Made by a program: the position numbers and the translations under genes. Positions 17,969 through 37,846 of a stretch of 64,000 bases of DNA are shown here, one piece after another. Under the pieces are notes generated by a model. The model did not search any database. It was given only the letters and a program-made list of their open reading frames with translations, and had not been told where the DNA came from. Location: NCBI GenBank assembly GCA_020723165.1, contig DYJK01000005.1, forward strand, positions 1 through 64,000. The letters run 5' to 3'. The stretch is from Melioribacter roseus. GTDB taxonomy: Bacteria; Bacteroidota; Ignavibacteria; Ignavibacteriales; Melioribacteraceae. Each line of letters begins with the position of its first letter. The stretch's first letter is position 1.

Positions 17969-18865
17969 TTAAGATTTTGGATGTGCTTTTTTATATGATT
18001 TTTTTAATCGTTCTATACTTACATGTGTATAAATCTGTGTAGTTGATAAATTTTCGTGTCCGAGGATTTCTTTAACTGCCATTATATCGGCATCCCTATC
18101 AAGCATGTGTGTTGCTGCACTGTGCCTTAGTATATGCGGACTTTTCTTCTCAATATCAGATACATATGAAATATATTTCTTTACAATTGAATAAACATCG
18201 AATCTGTTTATCCTTGCTGATTTATCCCTATAAAATAAAGGATTGGTATAAGAACGATCTTTTAATTCTTGAAAGTAACCTTTAATAATTTCAATTGATT
18301 TGTTACCTATCGGTACTATTCGAACTTTAGAACCTTTCCCAAAAACTCTTAACTGCTTCTTGTTCAAATCAACATCCCCAATGTTTAGACCACACAACTC
18401 AGAAACACGAAGTGCACAACCGTACAACAATTCTAAAATTGCCTTGTTTCTATTTTTGTACTCAGAATTTTTATCTTCATCTATCAATCTATAAATTTCC
18501 AAAAAAGAATCAAGATTAATTGTTTCAGGCAGCTTTCTTTTTACTTTCGGATTCGGAATCTTTTTTATCGGATTTTTATCAATTATTTCATTTCTTAACG
18601 CAAAACCAAACATTCTACGCAGTGTAGAAAGTTTTCTTGATACAGAACTTTTTGATAATTCTTTTGCATTTAATCCCATCACAAAACGACGTATTACTCT
18701 CTCCGATATTTGATCGATGGAATCGATTTTTTGTTCTGAACAGAAGTTAGAAAACTCTGCTAAGTCGTTTCTGTAAGCCTCTAAAGTATTATCAGATGCT
18801 CTGCTTATACCGGATAGCTCTGATAATGTATCGCGGATAACTTCTTGTAATTTTGCTTTGCTCAT
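17969..18865 (-). CDS. Tyrosine recombinase XerC/XerD family
   Basis: A site-specific recombinase. From the ATG at 18865 it is 298 residues; a TTG at 18877 would add four. The SAM-like N-terminal core-binding domain spans about 10-105. The catalytic residues are all visible: Arg in CALRVSELCGL, Lys in FGKGSKVR, HILRH (His and Arg), LGHENL and the nucleophile Tyr in TQIYTH. Length and position among core genes next to topA suggest a dimer-resolving Xer rather than a phage integrase. XerC versus XerD cannot be decided from this sequence alone. Confidence 0.9.
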   Translation of the reverse strand: MSKAKLQEVIRDTLSELSGISRASDNTLEAYRNDLAEFSNFCSEQKIDSIDQISERVIRRFVMGLNAKELSKSSVSRKLSTLRRMFGFALRNEIIDKNPIKKIPNPKVKRKLPETINLDSFLEIYRLIDEDKNSEYKNRNKAILELLYGCALRVSELCGLNIGDVDLNKKQLRVFGKGSKVRIVPIGNKSIEIIKGYFQELKDRSYTNPLFYRDKSARINRFDVYSIVKKYISYVSDIEKKSPHILRHSAATHMLDRDADIMAVKEILGHENLSTTQIYTHVSIERLKKSYKKAHPKS

Positions 18866-31004: not shown

Positions 31005-32105
31005 TTAATTCTCTTTTGTGATTACCCCACCGGCTAAAACGTATCCTTGTTCATCATAAATAACTAATGATTGTCCCGGTGTAACAGCATTTTTCGGTTC
31101 TGAAAATTTTATTTTAATCTTGTTCTGATCCGAATATAAAACTACGGCAGATGCTGCTCTATCTGCATAGCGGATCTTTGCAGAAACAAAATCCCCTTTT
31201 TTAAGAGATGATTTACTTACATAATTTATATCAACAGCGGTCACTTCCTCACCGAGCAATTCCTCTTTATCGCCAAGAATCACTCTGTTTGAATTTGTAT
31301 CGATCTCTTTTACGTAAACCGGCTTGCCGAGTGCCAATCCTAATCCCCTTCTCTGCCCAACTGTGTAAAACGGAATCCCCTTATGCTCACCGATTACTTC
31401 ACCGTGATAAACGATTTCTCCATGTTCAATCTTATCAATTACATCAGGGACACGCTCGCGCAGAAACCTTTCGTAATTATCATCGGCAACAAAACAGATT
31501 TCCTGGCTATCCGGTTTGTTTGCAGTTTTCAATTCCAACCGGTCTGCGATTTGTCTAACTTCATTCTTGGTTAAGTGACCTAGCGGAAATATTGTTCTGC
31601 TTAAACTTTCTTGTGTTAATCCCCAGAGTGCATATGTTTGGTCTTTCTTTGCATCCTTTGAATACTTAAGAGTATATCTGTTCAACTGTTCGTTATAATC
31701 AACCATAGCATAGTGACCGGTAGCAACATATTTAGCATCGAGCGAATCGGCTTTTTTAAGAAGCTCTTCCCATTTTATTTTTCTGTTGCAGACAACACAC
31801 GGGTTAGGTGTTCTCCCGTTCAGGTATTCATCAACAAAATTTTCTATCACTTCTTTTTCGAATGCCTTGGTAAAATCAACTGTGTAATGTGGAATACCGA
31901 ATTTGTTGGCAACACTCTTGGCATCGAATATCGCATCCAATGAACAGCAGCCCGATTCATGTTTGGGTGCACCGCCAACTTCCATGAATCCCCACGTCTT
32001 CATCGTAATACCGATTACCTCGTATCCTTGCTGATGAAGCAATGCCGCAGCTACCGAGGAATCAACACCGCCGCTCATTGCAACTATAACACGGTTTGAG
32101 TTCAC
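31005..32105 (-). CDS. mnmA: tRNA-specific 2-thiouridylase MnmA
   Basis: Thiolates U34 of Lys, Glu and Gln tRNAs. The PP-loop AMSGGVDSSVAA is near the N-terminus. The catalytic cysteines are in TPNPCVVCN and the SQEICFVADDNY stretch, and the interface region SQEICF to HKGIPFYTVGQRRGLG is intact. I choose GTG at 32105 (366 residues) because GAAAGG stands six bases upstream; a TTG at 32129 would add eight. A second copy of the first 15 or so codons lies at 32771-32824. Confidence 0.94.
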   Translation of the reverse strand: MNSNRVIVAMSGGVDSSVAAALLHQQGYEVIGITMKTWGFMEVGGAPKHESGCCSLDAIFDAKSVANKFGIPHYTVDFTKAFEKEVIENFVDEYLNGRTPNPCVVCNRKIKWEELLKKADSLDAKYVATGHYAMVDYNEQLNRYTLKYSKDAKKDQTYALWGLTQESLSRTIFPLGHLTKNEVRQIADRLELKTANKPDSQEICFVADDNYERFLRERVPDVIDKIEHGEIVYHGEVIGEHKGIPFYTVGQRRGLGLALGKPVYVKEIDTNSNRVILGDKEELLGEEVTAVDINYVSKSSLKKGDFVSAKIRYADRAASAVVLYSDQNKIKIKFSEPKNAVTPGQSLVIYDEQGYVLAGGVITKEN

Positions 32106-32120
32106 GTTTGACCTTTCATA
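32068..32120 (-). repeat. Direct repeat copy 1: 5' end of mnmA
   Basis: This stretch covers the ribosome-binding site, start and first codons of mnmA. Its core, 32073-32093, is identical over 21 bases to 32777-32797, and similarity extends on both sides, including the GAAAGG. Offset between the copies is 704 bases and the toxin-antitoxin pair lies between them. Confidence 0.85.
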
Positions 32121-32194
32121 ATAAATCAAATGTAATTATAAAAATTGTTTTGAGGTTACGAACTAAGTATAACGGATGGTCCTTTCAAATAAAA

Positions 32195-32454
32195 TTATTG
32201 TTTCGCTTTATAGATTTCCTTCCTATGGCCAACACGAAGCACAACTATTTTATCACCATCGATATCAAAATCACCCTATAATCTCCAATACGAAATCTGT
32301 AATTGCCAAGCGCAAAATTTGTTAATTTTTCCGAATACTTAAGAGGATTTTGAGAATAATTTTCGAGAGCATTTTTTATGCGAGTTTTAACAATTTCATT
32401 TAATTTCTGTATATCTCTGACTGCTCTTTTAGTATAAAGAAGTTCGTAACTCAT
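32195..32454 (-). pseudogene. RelE/ParE-type toxin gene with a single-base frameshift
   Basis: Reading from ATG at 32454 gives LLYTKRAVRDIQKLNE and NFALGNYRFRIGDYRVI, a clear RelE/ParE fold, but the frame ends early at 69 residues. Adding one base at the AAAA run 32267-32270 (TTTT on the coding strand) restores DIDGDKIVVLRVGHRKEIYK to a stop at 32195-32197, giving 86 residues with the family's usual C-terminal strand and basic residues. The toxin is therefore probably inactive unless this is a sequencing error. Its ATG overlaps the antitoxin stop. Confidence 0.8.
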
Positions 32455-32660
32455 TTTGTTTTAAATACTTCATCGTGAGAATAAACACGGCCTTTTTTAT
32501 AGTCATCACATGCTTCTTCGATACTTTTCAAATAATCAGGACTTGCTGCAGCCAGAAGATCTTCAACAAATGAAGTTCTCTCTCCTTTTTTCATTCGCAT
32601 CACAGCTTCGATTATCTGTCTAGGAGTTAAATTAACCTCTATCGATAATTCTCTGGACAT
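32451..32660 (-). CDS. Type II antitoxin, RelB-like
   Basis: A 69-residue protein. The N-terminal strand MSRELSIEVNLTPRQIIEAV suggests a short DNA-binding or dimerisation part, and the C-terminal YLKSIEEACDDYKKGRVYSHDEVF matches toxin-wrapping tails of RelB-type antitoxins. It precedes the toxin and overlaps it by 4 bases (ATGA), the standard order. AAGGAAA lies six bases before the ATG. Antitoxins normally repress their own promoter; a specific operator was not identified. Confidence 0.72.
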   Translation of the reverse strand: MSRELSIEVNLTPRQIIEAVMRMKKGERTSFVEDLLAAASPDYLKSIEEACDDYKKGRVYSHDEVFKTK

Positions 32661-32770
32661 ATTATTTCCTTTTTTAATTAAACTTTTAATTCACTCTTTA
32701 TATGTTCGTGAAAATAGCTTACTAATAACAAATATAGGAAAATAACTTAGATTTTTTTATTTGTATTCAC

Positions 32771-32824
32771 CCCGCTGCTCATTGCAACTATAACACGTTT
32801 TTTGTTCACGACTTCCCTTTCTTA
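32771..32824 (-). repeat. Direct repeat copy 2: displaced remnant of an mnmA 5' end
   Basis: On the minus strand this reads GAAAGGG, seven bases, then GTG and codons for VNKKRVIVAMSSGVN before the similarity ends. It is an mnmA start with its ribosome-binding site but with Ser for Gly and Asn for Asp in the PP-loop. No continuing mnmA frame follows. It shares 21 identical bases with copy 1 (32777-32797). Confidence 0.85.
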
Positions 32825-32873
32825 GACTAGCTATCCTTTTAACAACTGCAAAGATATAAAAATTATAGTTGAG

Positions 32874-32986
32874 AACTTGTCCGCTGCCAGCTCCGCCGAT
32901 GCAGAAGCGAGACGAGTCTTTTTAGCGGATTTAGAACTTGTCTGCGTTGGGCAATTAATAATTCACAATTTATAACTTGTCTGCTG
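32874..32986. repeat. Three degenerate AACTTGTCYGC repeats
   Basis: AACTTGTCCGCTG (32874), AACTTGTCTGCGT (32935) and AACTTGTCTGCTG (32974) are spaced 61 and 39 bases apart. Spacing is irregular and the intervening sequence differs, so this is not a CRISPR array; it looks like decayed copies of a short intergenic repeat. Confidence 0.55.
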
Positions 32987-33333
32987 TAGGCAGATTTATA
33001 ATTTTTTCAGGGGTTATTGATTTTTCTTAGTCAGAACATTAATTTGAACGCAGATTTGTTGGTGGTCTATGTTTGAATTCTTATCCGATCTTACTAGTGC
33101 TTTCCTCCCCCGAAGCTTTCCTCAAAAACATTCCCTTACCAACATACTATTTTACGATGGAAGCTTTACCTAAAAAATAGATGGCATGGTAGTACACAAA
33201 TAATTAAGAATTTTTAACAAAAACTAAATAAATATTAGTGGATGTAATTTAGAATATCCACTAGTCGCCTTGCCCTACAATATAGTTGGAATAAATATAA
33301 TTTATATGGTTATAAATATTTTCGTTAGATACA

Positions 33334-34479
33334 ATGATGATAGAAAATAATTTTATGTTTAGTTATTCAAAAACCATTATATGTTTATTTTTGATTTGTG
33401 TTGTCTCTTGTGTCCCATCACGTTCTCAAAAGTTAGTCAAATTACCTGGTGAACCTAATAATAATTCGCTTGATTCTTCCCGAGCTCAAATTGTTTACAA
33501 ATACGCAAAAAATTATCCAAATGGTACCGAAATTGCGATTGCATTTGTGATCGGTGATTCCGTAAGATATTATGGGATCCAACGCCGCAACGATTCTTTG
33601 GTATATGTTAAAAATTATATGTCTGCTTTTGAAATTGGCTCAATAACAAAAACATTTACGGCGACCATGCTTGCAGAACTTGTTTACAGCGGTAAAGTAG
33701 ATTTAAACGAACCAATTAAAAATATTTTGCCAATACATATGCATCAAAGTTCTCTCAGTGGAAAAGAAGTTACATTATTGCATCTTGCTAATCACACTTC
33801 TGGATTCCCGAAAGAACCTGGTAATTTAATATTTGACTGGTCTATTCCTGGAAGCCCATATAAATTTTATGACACTACAAAATTATACGACTATCTTTCA
33901 AAGAGAATTACGCTTCTCTCTATACCTGGTGAAAAACGTGAGTACTCCAATCTTGGAGGAGGATTACTTGGCCATCTGTTAACACTTTTAACTGGAAAAT
34001 CATATGAAAATCTTTTATCTGAATTTATTTGTAAACCCCTTGGTATGAAGAATACATTTGTTTCATTAGATAGTACCGAAACAAATAAACTTATTCCGGG
34101 TAGAGACCCTAACGGAAATATTACTCATAATTGGGATTTGAATGTGTTAGTAGGTGGAGGAGGTATCAAGTCGTCAACTGAAGATATGGTTAAGTATCTT
34201 CGTGCTCATATGACAGACACAACATTCTATCTTATGACACAACAGCCTACAATCAAATATACCGAAAACAATTTTGCTGGACTTGGATGGACCTGGTTTG
34301 CAATAGATAATTTCAAATTTGTCTCAGCAACCGGCGGTACCGGCGGATATTCATGCTGTGTAATTTTCGAGCGAGGCACAAAGAAGGCAATCGTTTTGCT
34401 AACAAATGTTTCGTCTTTCTTAGCATCAAAAGATGATTCCATCTCGAATATGAGTATTGAATTACATAAATCTCTTTGA
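33334..34479 (+). CDS. Serine hydrolase lipoprotein, class C beta-lactamase fold
   Basis: A 381-residue exported protein. A signal sequence ends with lipobox VVSC (C26). The start could equally be the ATG for M8, which gives a cleaner signal peptide. SITK at 103-106 is the SxxK nucleophile motif and YSN at 204-206 the second motif. A TGGTGG segment near residue 340 stands where HxG/KTG is expected. The family covers esterases, D-aminopeptidases and D-Ala-D-Ala enzymes, and true AmpC is only one branch, so antibiotic resistance should not be assumed. A second member follows downstream. Confidence 0.85.
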   Translation: MMIENNFMFSYSKTIICLFLICVVSCVPSRSQKLVKLPGEPNNNSLDSSRAQIVYKYAKNYPNGTEIAIAFVIGDSVRYYGIQRRNDSLVYVKNYMSAFEIGSITKTFTATMLAELVYSGKVDLNEPIKNILPIHMHQSSLSGKEVTLLHLANHTSGFPKEPGNLIFDWSIPGSPYKFYDTTKLYDYLSKRITLLSIPGEKREYSNLGGGLLGHLLTLLTGKSYENLLSEFICKPLGMKNTFVSLDSTETNKLIPGRDPNGNITHNWDLNVLVGGGGIKSSTEDMVKYLRAHMTDTTFYLMTQQPTIKYTENNFAGLGWTWFAIDNFKFVSATGGTGGYSCCVIFERGTKKAIVLLTNVSSFLASKDDSISNMSIELHKSL

Positions 34480-34626
34480 AATTATGATCGATATATATTT
34501 ATGAATTGCATATAACTCGCTACCCAACTGAACAGCATTTTTTTTAGGACGTCATTTGTATAATTATAAAGTTGTGTTCAAAAACTAAGCAAGTTTTTTG
34601 AATCATTTTTATCAATATAATATAGT

Positions 34627-35766
34627 ATGAAGACTACCAAAAGATTCTTTATTTATTTCATTATGCTTTTCCTATTCGCAATTTATAGTTGCTCACAAAG
34701 TCAAAACACTGGCTTTTCTAAGCGTGTAACTGCCGGTCGTCCCGTTCCGGATGGTGTGATGGATACATTAATGAATTTATATAATGTCCCCGGTGTAAGT
34801 ATTGCAGTAATCCACAACGGTCAAATTGATTGGGTGAAAGGTTACGGTCTCCGCGAATACGGAAAATCCGAACGTGTAGATAGCACCACTTTATTCCAGG
34901 CAGCTTCTATTTCAAAACCGGTCTCTGCAGTTGCTGCCTTGCGGATGGTTGATAAAGGAGAGCTAACCTTAGATGAAGATGTGAACCTCAAATTGCAGTC
35001 ATGGAAAGTACCTGAGAATGAATTCACCAAGAAACAATACATTACACTACGCCGACTATTGAGTCATTCTGCCGGCTTGTCTATGCACGGCGTCCCGGAA
35101 TTTTCTGCCGGTGCCGAACTCCCCACCCTCGTACAGATTCTCGACGGTAATTGGTTTGCATCAACAGAACCGGTTCGTGTAATCACCGAACCGGGCACTA
35201 TGTTCCGTTATTCCGGCGGCGGTTATATTGTGTTGCATGTACTATTGGAAGATATTACTAAGCGCCCATTTGCAGAGCTTGCCCGTGAATTCGTACTACA
35301 GCCAGCCGGCATGTTATCAAGTACTTTTGAACAACCTTTACCAAAGCAATTTTGGTCTCAAGCTGCTGTTGGGCATCTCGCTGACAAAACTCCCCTTCAA
35401 GGACTCTGGCACATATTGCCAGAGCAAGCGGCCGGCGGACTTTGGACAACTCCCAAAGACCTTGCATCATTCATGATAGAACTCTGGCGGTCTTATCAAG
35501 GTTTATCAGACAAACTTCTCCCTAAACATCTTGCACGCGAAATGTTGACAAGACAGATTGATGATTTTGGGCTTGGACTCTCTCTGCCGGGTGTTGGTGT
35601 CTCTCGTTTTCAGCACAGTGGCGGAAATGCCGGGTACCGGTGTTTTATGGTTCTTTCAATAGATGTTCCCGATGGCATCGTGATCATGACCAACAGTGAC
35701 TCCGGTGAAGAGTTAATCTGGAAAGTATTCGAGTTAATCGGTCACTCATACGGATGGCAAGTATAA
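34627..35766 (+). CDS. Serine hydrolase lipoprotein, class C beta-lactamase fold, second copy
   Basis: A 379-residue paralogue. The signal peptide ends with a lipobox before C22 (IYSC). SISK is at 94-97, YSG at 195-197, and HSGGNAGY near the C-terminus is the HxG-type third motif. The two neighbouring proteins resemble each other mainly at motifs, so this is not a recent tandem duplication. Its DNA is visibly GC-richer than neighbouring genes and uses more C/G third positions, which hints at separate acquisition. Substrate unknown. Confidence 0.87.
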   Translation: MKTTKRFFIYFIMLFLFAIYSCSQSQNTGFSKRVTAGRPVPDGVMDTLMNLYNVPGVSIAVIHNGQIDWVKGYGLREYGKSERVDSTTLFQAASISKPVSAVAALRMVDKGELTLDEDVNLKLQSWKVPENEFTKKQYITLRRLLSHSAGLSMHGVPEFSAGAELPTLVQILDGNWFASTEPVRVITEPGTMFRYSGGGYIVLHVLLEDITKRPFAELAREFVLQPAGMLSSTFEQPLPKQFWSQAAVGHLADKTPLQGLWHILPEQAAGGLWTTPKDLASFMIELWRSYQGLSDKLLPKHLAREMLTRQIDDFGLGLSLPGVGVSRFQHSGGNAGYRCFMVLSIDVPDGIVIMTNSDSGEELIWKVFELIGHSYGWQV

Positions 35767-35876
35767 AGAATGTCATTAACTGGAGAGACGTTTTTTTGTT
35801 TGGTATTATCTCGCTTATTGGATTGTCTGCTGTATTGCTTAAAATAAGTTTGAATCTAAATAACCGTCTGCTTTAG
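35754..35876 (+). CDS. Possible 40-residue membrane protein
   Basis: An ATG at 35754, inside the last codons of the serine-hydrolase gene, opens a frame of 40 codons with a polar start (MASIKNVINWRD) and one hydrophobic helix (about 13-30, FLFGIISLIGLSAVLL). The overlap with the preceding gene favours coupled translation, and a plausible membrane helix favours coding. It has no recognised family and could be chance. Confidence 0.3.
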   Translation: MASIKNVINWRDVFLFGIISLIGLSAVLLKISLNLNNRLL

Positions 35877-35975
35877 CAAACGGAATAACGCCTGAGAAGA
35901 AAACATGGGCTTTCGCCCTATCAGACTAAGCTAATGTGGCTAAAGCCAGAATGTTATCGTTCTTTTTTTTGGATT

Positions 35976-36027
35976 CCGTCAGTTTGGCGAAGTCATTCCT
36001 TCAGAAAAAACTGACGGTAGTTTTTTT
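35976..36027 (+). terminator. Hairpin with T-run downstream of the serine-hydrolase genes
   Basis: A perfect 10-base stem (CCGTCAGTTT at 35976-35985 with AAACTGACGG at 36008-36017) encloses a 22-base loop and is followed by TAG and TTTTTTT at 36021-36027. It sits in the 217-base gap before the gene at 36094 and would end transcription of the two lipoprotein genes. The rest of the gap holds a weaker GGCTTT/AAAGCC inverted repeat around 35910-35945. Confidence 0.65.
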
Positions 36028-36093
36028 ATTTTTGAGTTATGCAACTGCCGTTAATTAATAAATATAGCATCATAAATTAGCCGGAGGGATATC

Positions 36094-36456
36094 ATGAAAG
36101 AAATTTATGGTTTCAGCTGGCCTTGGAGAGAAAATCATGCAGAATTAGCAAGGCAATTATTCACTTGTTTAGAAGATACAATGAATCAAGGAAACATGCC
36201 TCCTTCTTTTGTATATGAGATAGGATTAGTGCGAGGAGATAGTACGTTAGTATGTTTTCTCACCGACACACTTGATAACAAAGATTACGAAAAGCTAAAA
36301 AGTTGGATCCTATCAAGTAACGCACCTGAATTTGATGAGTTTGAAGTAATTCCCAGTAAAAAAGGATCATTAGTTGATGACCTTAAAGCACCTTATGATG
36401 TTAAAGAATATTTTGATATATGGAAAGGTAAATTCAATCATCATCTATTGATTTGA
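36094..36456 (+). CDS. Hypothetical 120-residue protein
   Basis: Not recognised. The start is well supported by GGAGG seven bases before the ATG. The protein is soluble and acidic, with tryptophan-rich N-terminus FSWPWRENH, a middle segment with hydrophobic strands (FVYEIGLVRG, LVCFLTDTL) and a C-terminal helix. No signal peptide, metal motif or helix-turn-helix is seen. It stands alone between a terminator and a palindromic repeat element. Confidence 0.55.
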   Translation: MKEIYGFSWPWRENHAELARQLFTCLEDTMNQGNMPPSFVYEIGLVRGDSTLVCFLTDTLDNKDYEKLKSWILSSNAPEFDEFEVIPSKKGSLVDDLKAPYDVKEYFDIWKGKFNHHLLI

Positions 36457-36486
36457 AACTAGTAGGTTGTTGAAGTAATACACAAG

Positions 36487-36620
36487 GACAACTAGTCAGT
36501 CTAGGAACTAGTCTTTGTCACTCTGAACTTGGTCCAGAGTCTTAATTAATTTCCTTTTCAAAGGATTAGATTCCGAAACAAGACTTGCCTAACGGCAGTC
36601 ATGTTCGGAATGAAGGTATC
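36487..36620. repeat. Palindromic intergenic element, GC-richer than surroundings
   Basis: Contains three nested inverted repeats: ACTCTG/CAGAGT (36520-36525 and 36535-36540), TCCTTT/AAAGGA (36552-36557, 36560-36565) and ATTCCGAA/TTCGGAAT (36570-36577, 36604-36611). The style is that of dispersed palindromic units common between genes in Bacteroidota relatives. The 36457-36729 gap holds no gene. Confidence 0.5.
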
Positions 36621-36729
36621 CGGACAGACTCCACTCCTTGACGAGTACATTTTCTGAACTACCGGCATGCTCGCAGAATTAAGGAGAGTTGGCATTTATA
36701 CATTTAACTTTATTAATTAAAGGTTAAAA

Positions 36730-37143
36730 ATGAAAAAGCTAAATCTATTATGTGTTATACGACTACTTAGTTTACCGCATTTATTCTTATTAATCGCAGT
36801 CATAGTAATTTTATCCGGCTGCAGCAAAACAAGCGAGATCGAACCGATAGTTGGCGTCGAAAAGACAGTAACTGTATTTAAAGACTCGGAGGATTTCTAC
36901 TGGGCAATCCCTGGTAATGGTATCGAAAAAGTTGAAGGCGAGCAGATATTTATAAAAACAGATGTAATATTCAGTCGCGGCAAAGGTGAAGGTAATGTAA
37001 AAAGGATCTCTGAGATTCTCCGGGAAAACCGCCGGACACAGCGAGGCAGTTACCAGGCAATTGAATCGACATTTACAGAAACAATAAACGGAAAGGAAGT
37101 TGTTACTAAACTTCACGATTGTTTAACTGCAATAACTACATAA
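36730..37143 (+). CDS. Hypothetical lipoprotein
   Basis: A 137-residue exported protein. Its signal peptide carries a long hydrophobic core, and the lipobox LSGC gives a lipidated cysteine near residue 31. The mature part is hydrophilic, with FYWAIPGNGIEKVEG and a C-terminal FTETINGKEVVTKLHDC stretch. It has no recognised domain. AGG lies seven bases before the ATG. It stands alone, 586 bases before acpS. Confidence 0.55.
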   Translation: MKKLNLLCVIRLLSLPHLFLLIAVIVILSGCSKTSEIEPIVGVEKTVTVFKDSEDFYWAIPGNGIEKVEGEQIFIKTDVIFSRGKGEGNVKRISEILRENRRTQRGSYQAIESTFTETINGKEVVTKLHDCLTAITT

Positions 37144-37284
37144 CCAGTTACCCTTACAGTAGTAGAAGTAATTGATGTTATAAAATAAATGCAGTATTAA
37201 AAATTCTTTTTGCTGATAATCTAGCAATGAATTATCTTGAAGCGTTGTAACCAATAATACATCTAGAAAAAAAATGGGATAATT

Positions 37285-37731
37285 ATGGATAGAGATTATC
37301 AAGTAAAACAGAGTAATAAATTAATTTGGTTTGGAGTATTGTTATTCCTATTAGGGTTACTTACCGGTTTTATCTCACCATTAACGGCAAATCCGCGCAT
37401 GGGTTTATCAAGCCACATTGAAGGTGCATTGAACGGAATGCTTCTAATGATTTTTGGTTTAATCTGGCCCAAACTAAATTTATCACACAAAGCATTAAAA
37501 TCGGGATATGGACTTGCACTATTCGGCACTTTTACCAACTGGCTAACTACCCTTCTTGCCGCAATATGGGGTGCCGGTTCCGAAATGATGCCTATTGCCG
37601 GTGGTGGTTTACAAGGAACCCAATTGCAAGAAATAATAATTAAAATTGGATTGATTACCCTTTCAATAGCAATGGTAATTGTCTGCGGAATACTGCTATG
37701 GGGAATGAAAAGAAGTCCAATGGAAAGTTAA
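37285..37731 (+). CDS. Probable hydroxylaminobenzene mutase, HabA-like membrane protein
   Basis: A 148-residue protein with four membrane helices. The segments WFGVLLFLLGLLTGF, ANPRMGLSSHIEGALNGMLL and IWGAGSEMMPIAGGG closely resemble, from memory, the hydroxylaminobenzene mutase family, which isomerises hydroxylaminobenzene to 2-aminophenol in nitroaromatic breakdown. The assignment rests on these conserved blocks. No nitroreductase or aminophenol dioxygenase gene is nearby, so the physiological substrate may differ. It is the last plus-strand gene before the convergent acpS. Confidence 0.65.
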   Translation: MDRDYQVKQSNKLIWFGVLLFLLGLLTGFISPLTANPRMGLSSHIEGALNGMLLMIFGLIWPKLNLSHKALKSGYGLALFGTFTNWLTTLLAAIWGAGSEMMPIAGGGLQGTQLQEIIIKIGLITLSIAMVIVCGILLWGMKRSPMES

Positions 37732-37846
37732 AACAGTTGTGATAGTATAAAATGTAATGTCCAATATTTAATCAGCGGAAATCATAAAAGATCAGCCGGA
37801 TCAGCGTTCTATTTATTAAGCTCTAATTATTTTTATGTGAAAACAA

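Follow-up and report, generated by a model that had tools for sequence, protein, structure and literature searches.

The 5' end of mnmA is present twice in the window (the whole 64,000-nt stretch of DNA that was analysed), as two related starts on either side of a toxin–antitoxin pair. Comparison with the mnmA leaders of related genomes supports a reading of the distal copy (copy 2) as the old, native start, and of the copy adjoining the gene (copy 1) as its replacement. The original prediction had proposed a small or decayed mobile element inserted into the start of mnmA; its old-start remnant and its replacement start have stood up to analysis, while a dedicated SXT-like element has not. The presence of a second mnmA-type promoter between the copies points instead to recombination between mnmA loci, and we put the chance that two such loci recombined horizontally and left this structure as a scar, with no dedicated mobile element involved, at about even. 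The features concerned are listed in Table 1.

Table 1. Features at the duplicated mnmA start (positions in the window)
Feature	Position	Strand	Remarks
mnmA (tRNA 2-thiouridylase)	31005–32105	-	GTG start at 32105; Pfam tRNA_Me_trans, 1.9e-76
Copy 1 of the repeat	32065–32120	-	Ribosome-binding site, start and first codons of present mnmA (VNSNRVIVAMSGGVD)
21-nt identical core, copy 1	32073–32093	-	Putative crossover site
ParE-family toxin ORF	32245–32454	-	Pfam PF05016, 2.1e-6; frame broken
Antitoxin-like ORF, 69 aa	32451–32660	-	88% aa and 82% nt (82.4%) identity to the antitoxin that precedes mnmA of G024
P1, additional mnmA-type promoter/leader preceding the antitoxin	32690–32755	-	Homologous to mnmA leaders at L101 and L089
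Copy 2 of the repeat	32769–32824	-	Putative old mnmA ribosome-binding site, start and ~14 codons
21-nt identical core, copy 2	32777–32797	-	
P2, leader of native mnmA type preceding copy 2, with the likely promoter	32810–32875	-	Homologous to mnmA leaders at L091, L092 and L097 (genus g7)

Two mnmA starts around a broken toxin–antitoxin pair

The two copies form a direct repeat of 56 nt with 82% identity and a spacing of 704 nt, and within it lies a core in which 21 of 21 bases are identical, as had been predicted. The start in copy 1 reads AACTCAAA, which among the relatives listed is shared only by G024 and G064. Copy 2 reads VNKKRVIVAMSSGVNTNKKI followed by a stop (32747–32809, minus strand), and its potential product, as predicted from the reading frame, would be a 20-aa peptide. 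Its homology to mnmA is gone past approximately codon 14, in agreement with the loss of frame described beforehand, and inspection by eye against NEKRVIVAMSGGVD, the sequence common in the family, showed three substitutions (E to K, G to S, and D to N).

With up to three mismatches allowed, the 21-mer was found at only two sites in the 3.8 Mb genome, both at the repeat, and the full 21-mer was present in 0 of 84 distinct mnmA starts from relatives (best match 20 of 21, mostly 15–18). The synonymous codons common to both copies are thus not merely a consequence of protein constraint, and a recent common origin of the two copies at the core is most likely. All 12 mismatches over the 60 aligned nt around the start fell outside the core (0 of 21 positions within it versus 12 of 39 beside it); given 12 mismatches in 60 nt, a clean run of 21 nt has p = 0.036 if mismatches are distributed uniformly, which is nominally significant only, the test having been chosen post hoc.

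The interval between the copies encodes the predicted toxin–antitoxin pair and nothing else, with no recombinase among its genes. The pair is not intact, however: the toxin ORF carries a PF05016 domain but stops early at 32245, before its C-terminus, the conserved part of which resumes in another frame and runs to approximately 32195. An intact homologue of the toxin is present in G068. The antitoxin-like ORF had no family match in either Pfam or NCBIfam. A candidate HicB remnant between P1 and the antitoxin was rejected, being non-significant whether the ribosome-binding site was included (p = 0.10) or left out (p = 0.83). The intact homologue of the whole pair in G068 (L117, 892–1092) is located shortly upstream of a gene named by eye as hrcA, another housekeeping gene.

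The mnmA gene of the window shares 82% amino acid identity with that of G001, the sole same-genus genome, in line with neighbouring genes (81–86% for trpS, the HNH gene, scpA, and scpB), and in a tree of mnmA its body groups, with weak support, with G001 and genus g7 and not with genus g8; both observations suggest that the gene body was most likely inherited vertically. No mosaic break was seen within mnmA in 30-codon windows, and a search of the region against Rfam gave no structured RNA match. The gene order dacB, rluB, scpB, scpA, trpS, HNH gene, mnmA, acpS, ggt, mlaD is conserved across the family. The gap between mnmA and acpS, often shorter than ~250 nt in the family, is occupied in the window by ~5 kb of other genes (32825–37846), comprising two beta-lactamase-family serine hydrolases and small ORFs, and in G001, as judged by eye, by a different cargo (a radical-SAM-like gene and small ORFs).

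Leaders of mnmA in the window and in relatives

With the second leader P1 located in the interval, the minus strand carries P2, the old start, P1, the antitoxin, the toxin, the new start, and mnmA, in that order; since P1 lies between copy 2 and the antitoxin, the interval may be read as an mnmA leader that holds a toxin–antitoxin pair and a replacement start. P2 resembles the mnmA leaders of the genus g7 loci L091, L092, and L097 (p = 0.003 each, dinucleotide shuffles), and the leader that precedes HicB of G001 is related to it as well (p = 0.017 to the window, p = 0.001 to L091); it is on these matches that copy 2 is taken to be the old start. The mnmA leaders that P1 resembles are those at L101 and L089 (p = 0.003 each, dinucleotide shuffles). 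P1 was rejected as a generic promoter because its 15-mer TATATTTGTTATTAG (32722–32736) has a single exact match in the genome, namely itself. The possibility that P1 is the pair's own promoter was likewise set aside, as by eye it is absent from the homologous pairs in G068, G001 (C30), and G066 (C219). The leader of copy 1 matches that of no relative and has a weak likeness to the leader of copy 2 (p = 0.024 with the ribosome-binding site excluded). Upstream of P2, a short repeat of the AACTTGTCYGC type is present in three copies (32869–32992).

The relatives compared are mostly metagenome assemblies, and the same-genus comparison consists of one genome. A degenerate mnmA start was matched in 65 of 79 family genomes, 64 of which had one site, the window genome alone having two. 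In the three g7 loci, the leader runs directly into one mnmA start with no toxin–antitoxin genes, which constitutes the empty, single-start site expected from the original prediction; and as no relative has a second mnmA start, none combines both copies with absence of the pair, a combination that would have spoken against an insertion.

HicB, HicBA, or a ParE-type pair was found at the mnmA leader of five genomes from three genera. The leader of G001 contains HicB alone, and that of G066, nearly identical to the leader of its genus-mate G065, contains HicB and HicA (the latter matching PF07927). The same pair as in the window stands in front of mnmA in G024, where HicB, the window-type antitoxin, and a truncated toxin are followed by the AACTCAAA start, with no second copy; in G023, at a contig edge, the antitoxin and only the end of the toxin were recognised by eye. 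No second mnmA start was found in G001, G066, G024, or G023. A promoter duplication around HicBA in G066 was considered and rejected (p = 0.13 once the ribosome-binding site was removed). The antitoxins of the window and G024 share 82.4% DNA identity versus 72.4% for mnmA of the same two genomes, and HicB of G024 and G066 share 92.7% versus 71.8% for mnmA. These sequence comparisons suggest, and given short genes and single comparisons do not prove, transfer of genes at this site from one genus to another.

Origin of the duplicated start

Recombination between mnmA loci would explain the structure as follows. The resident locus would have consisted of promoter P2, a ribosome-binding site, a start, and mnmA, as in genus g7, and the incoming DNA, which we infer came from a relative, would have brought an mnmA leader with P1, the antitoxin, the toxin, a ribosome-binding site, and a start. 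A crossover in or adjoining the 21-nt identity (codons 5–11), together with a join of the other end of the import to the resident gene near codon 14, would have stranded P2 and the former first ~14 codons upstream, where they no longer function. Translation of mnmA would now begin at the imported start that follows the pair, with transcription probably originating at P1 or from P2 read-through, and the toxin frame would have been lost after the import.

Several observations are consistent with such a course of events: copy 2 lies behind a native-type leader and the mnmA body groups with the same relatives (with weak support); a second mnmA-type promoter is contained in the interval; the pair recurs at this position in G024, again followed by the unusual AACTCAAA start; and the clean 21-nt run fits a junction of two parental sequences at the core better than it fits a single duplicated sequence decaying uniformly. 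Against it, a linear import with two ordinary crossovers replaces the old start and gives no duplication, so that the model has to invoke end-joining, a circular donor, or an event between sister chromosomes, and no donor was found in which promoter, pair, and start follow one another in precisely that order. The weak likeness between the leaders of copies 1 and 2 would fit a duplication within the genome, and the support of the mnmA tree is weak and the clean-run test nominal and post hoc. Homology-facilitated illegitimate recombination has been proposed for immunity-gene arrays of Vibrio cholerae, in which remnants of the displaced gene stay in place (PMC5361080). As in those arrays, the module in the window would be anchored by homology at one end and joined illegitimately at the other, with a remnant of the old gene; unlike there, where an effector gene is displaced, it is the 5' end of a housekeeping gene that is left, and the order of the parts needs a circular or sister-strand intermediate.

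The strongest rival to recombination, which we consider rather unlikely, is insertion with a long target duplication, whereby the unit entered the resident mnmA and copied its leader and first codons, both copies being resident and having since diverged. An addiction-type unit flanked by direct repeats of its target, in an interval without a recombinase, is indeed what the locus contains, and the leaders of the two copies are weakly similar beyond the repeat. Precedent comes from restriction–modification genes of Helicobacter pylori (Nobusato et al. 2000, as cited in PMC1643837, which names it, and in PMC4978471), which share with the window the addiction-type unit, the direct target repeats, and the lack of a transposase in the unit; the window differs from them in having only 21 nt identical, flanks that look as if they came from two parents, and, inside, another promoter of the target gene. 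That promoter is left unexplained by target duplication, as is the AACTCAAA start common to the window and G024. Also against it, divergence is uneven between the core and the sequence beside it, and G024 has its pair in the same place without any duplication.

SXT elements insert at the 5' end of prfC and supply a replacement start. SGI1-like elements in dusA, a tRNA-modification gene, bring a new promoter and start (PMC8409611). The window resembles both in its replacement start, and dusA, as mnmA, encodes a tRNA-modification enzyme. A small or decayed element of the integrase type, with the mnmA start as its attachment site, would be in keeping with a repeated core with divergent flanks, a working new start, and a remnant of the old one, which is how attachment sites of 5'-end integrative elements look, and a recombinase could act in trans from other tyrosine-recombinase loci in the genome. 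Unlike SXT and SGI1-like elements, however, which measure 23–37 kb and encode their own integrase (PMC8409611), the interval is 704 bp long and encodes no site-specific recombinase; the only PF00589 match in the window (18017–18499) is a XerC/D-type gene next to topA, ~14 kb away. The original prediction envisaged other elements with the same 21-base core, and none was found: the other genomes of the family set lack a second site, and neither the 21-mer nor its degenerate version was found among the viral contigs of IMG/VR. Since, moreover, the pair in G024 precedes mnmA without a duplicated start, we regard an integrase-type element as improbable. A search for mobile elements in mnmA/trmU returned no literature with the terms used. 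A tyrosine recombinase with a Phage_int_SAM_4 domain does lie beside mnmA in G017 (L097), 451–1129 nt upstream and divergent from it, with a frame that looked incomplete in the stretch examined; it is absent from the window locus, the mnmA start of G017 is single, and it was not retained as a candidate.

Two further readings seem to us very unlikely, the latter marginally the more so. Copy 2, which comes with a complete leader and a start, could be what is left of a tandemly duplicated mnmA, or of an additional mnmA of foreign origin that has mostly been deleted; this alternative, raised in the original prediction as duplication or conversion between mnmA copies, is disfavoured by the fact that no relative has a second mnmA start, and descent of copy 2 from a diverged gene would not readily account for the 21-nt identity. 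An assembly artefact would have joined strain variants of the mnmA start at the 21-mer. The genome is in 193 contigs with one same-genus relative only, the exact repeat is 21 nt long, and 21 is a common assembler word size; the resemblance of copy 2 to mnmA, however, extends past the core and ends at another point, so the structure does not arise from a misjoin confined to the core.

Toxin–antitoxin genes in the leader of a housekeeping gene

A broader reading, which we put forward tentatively and consider possible but less than probable, is that the mnmA leader of Melioribacteraceae-type Ignavibacteria serves as a landing site for toxin–antitoxin modules, which would move between genera and become tied to the expression of the tRNA-thiolation gene, the toxins decaying and the antitoxins staying; the double start of the window would then be one such join, caught before erasure of the old start. 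The single event by itself is ordinary genome evolution. The locus would illustrate a route by which a toxin–antitoxin pair becomes the leader of a housekeeping gene, which survives because the unit brings a working replacement start, while the old start persists as a readable scar. Recurrence at one leader in three genera makes this a natural spot to test whether such pairs gain in persistence from sitting in the transcript of a needed gene.

The genes involved are like type II modules of the ParE/RelE and HicBA kinds, to judge from the Pfam matches of the window toxin and of HicA in G066, and unlike them in that the antitoxin is unmatched, the toxin is broken, and both genes are placed downstream of an mnmA promoter and ahead of the mnmA start. 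The same position was seen in G066 (L087), where HicB (261–486 nt upstream of mnmA) and an apparently intact HicA (47–269 nt upstream) lie between promoter and start. Neither G001 nor G024 has HicA in its leader, and none of the ParE-type toxins of the window, G023, and G024 is whole, each being truncated or broken.
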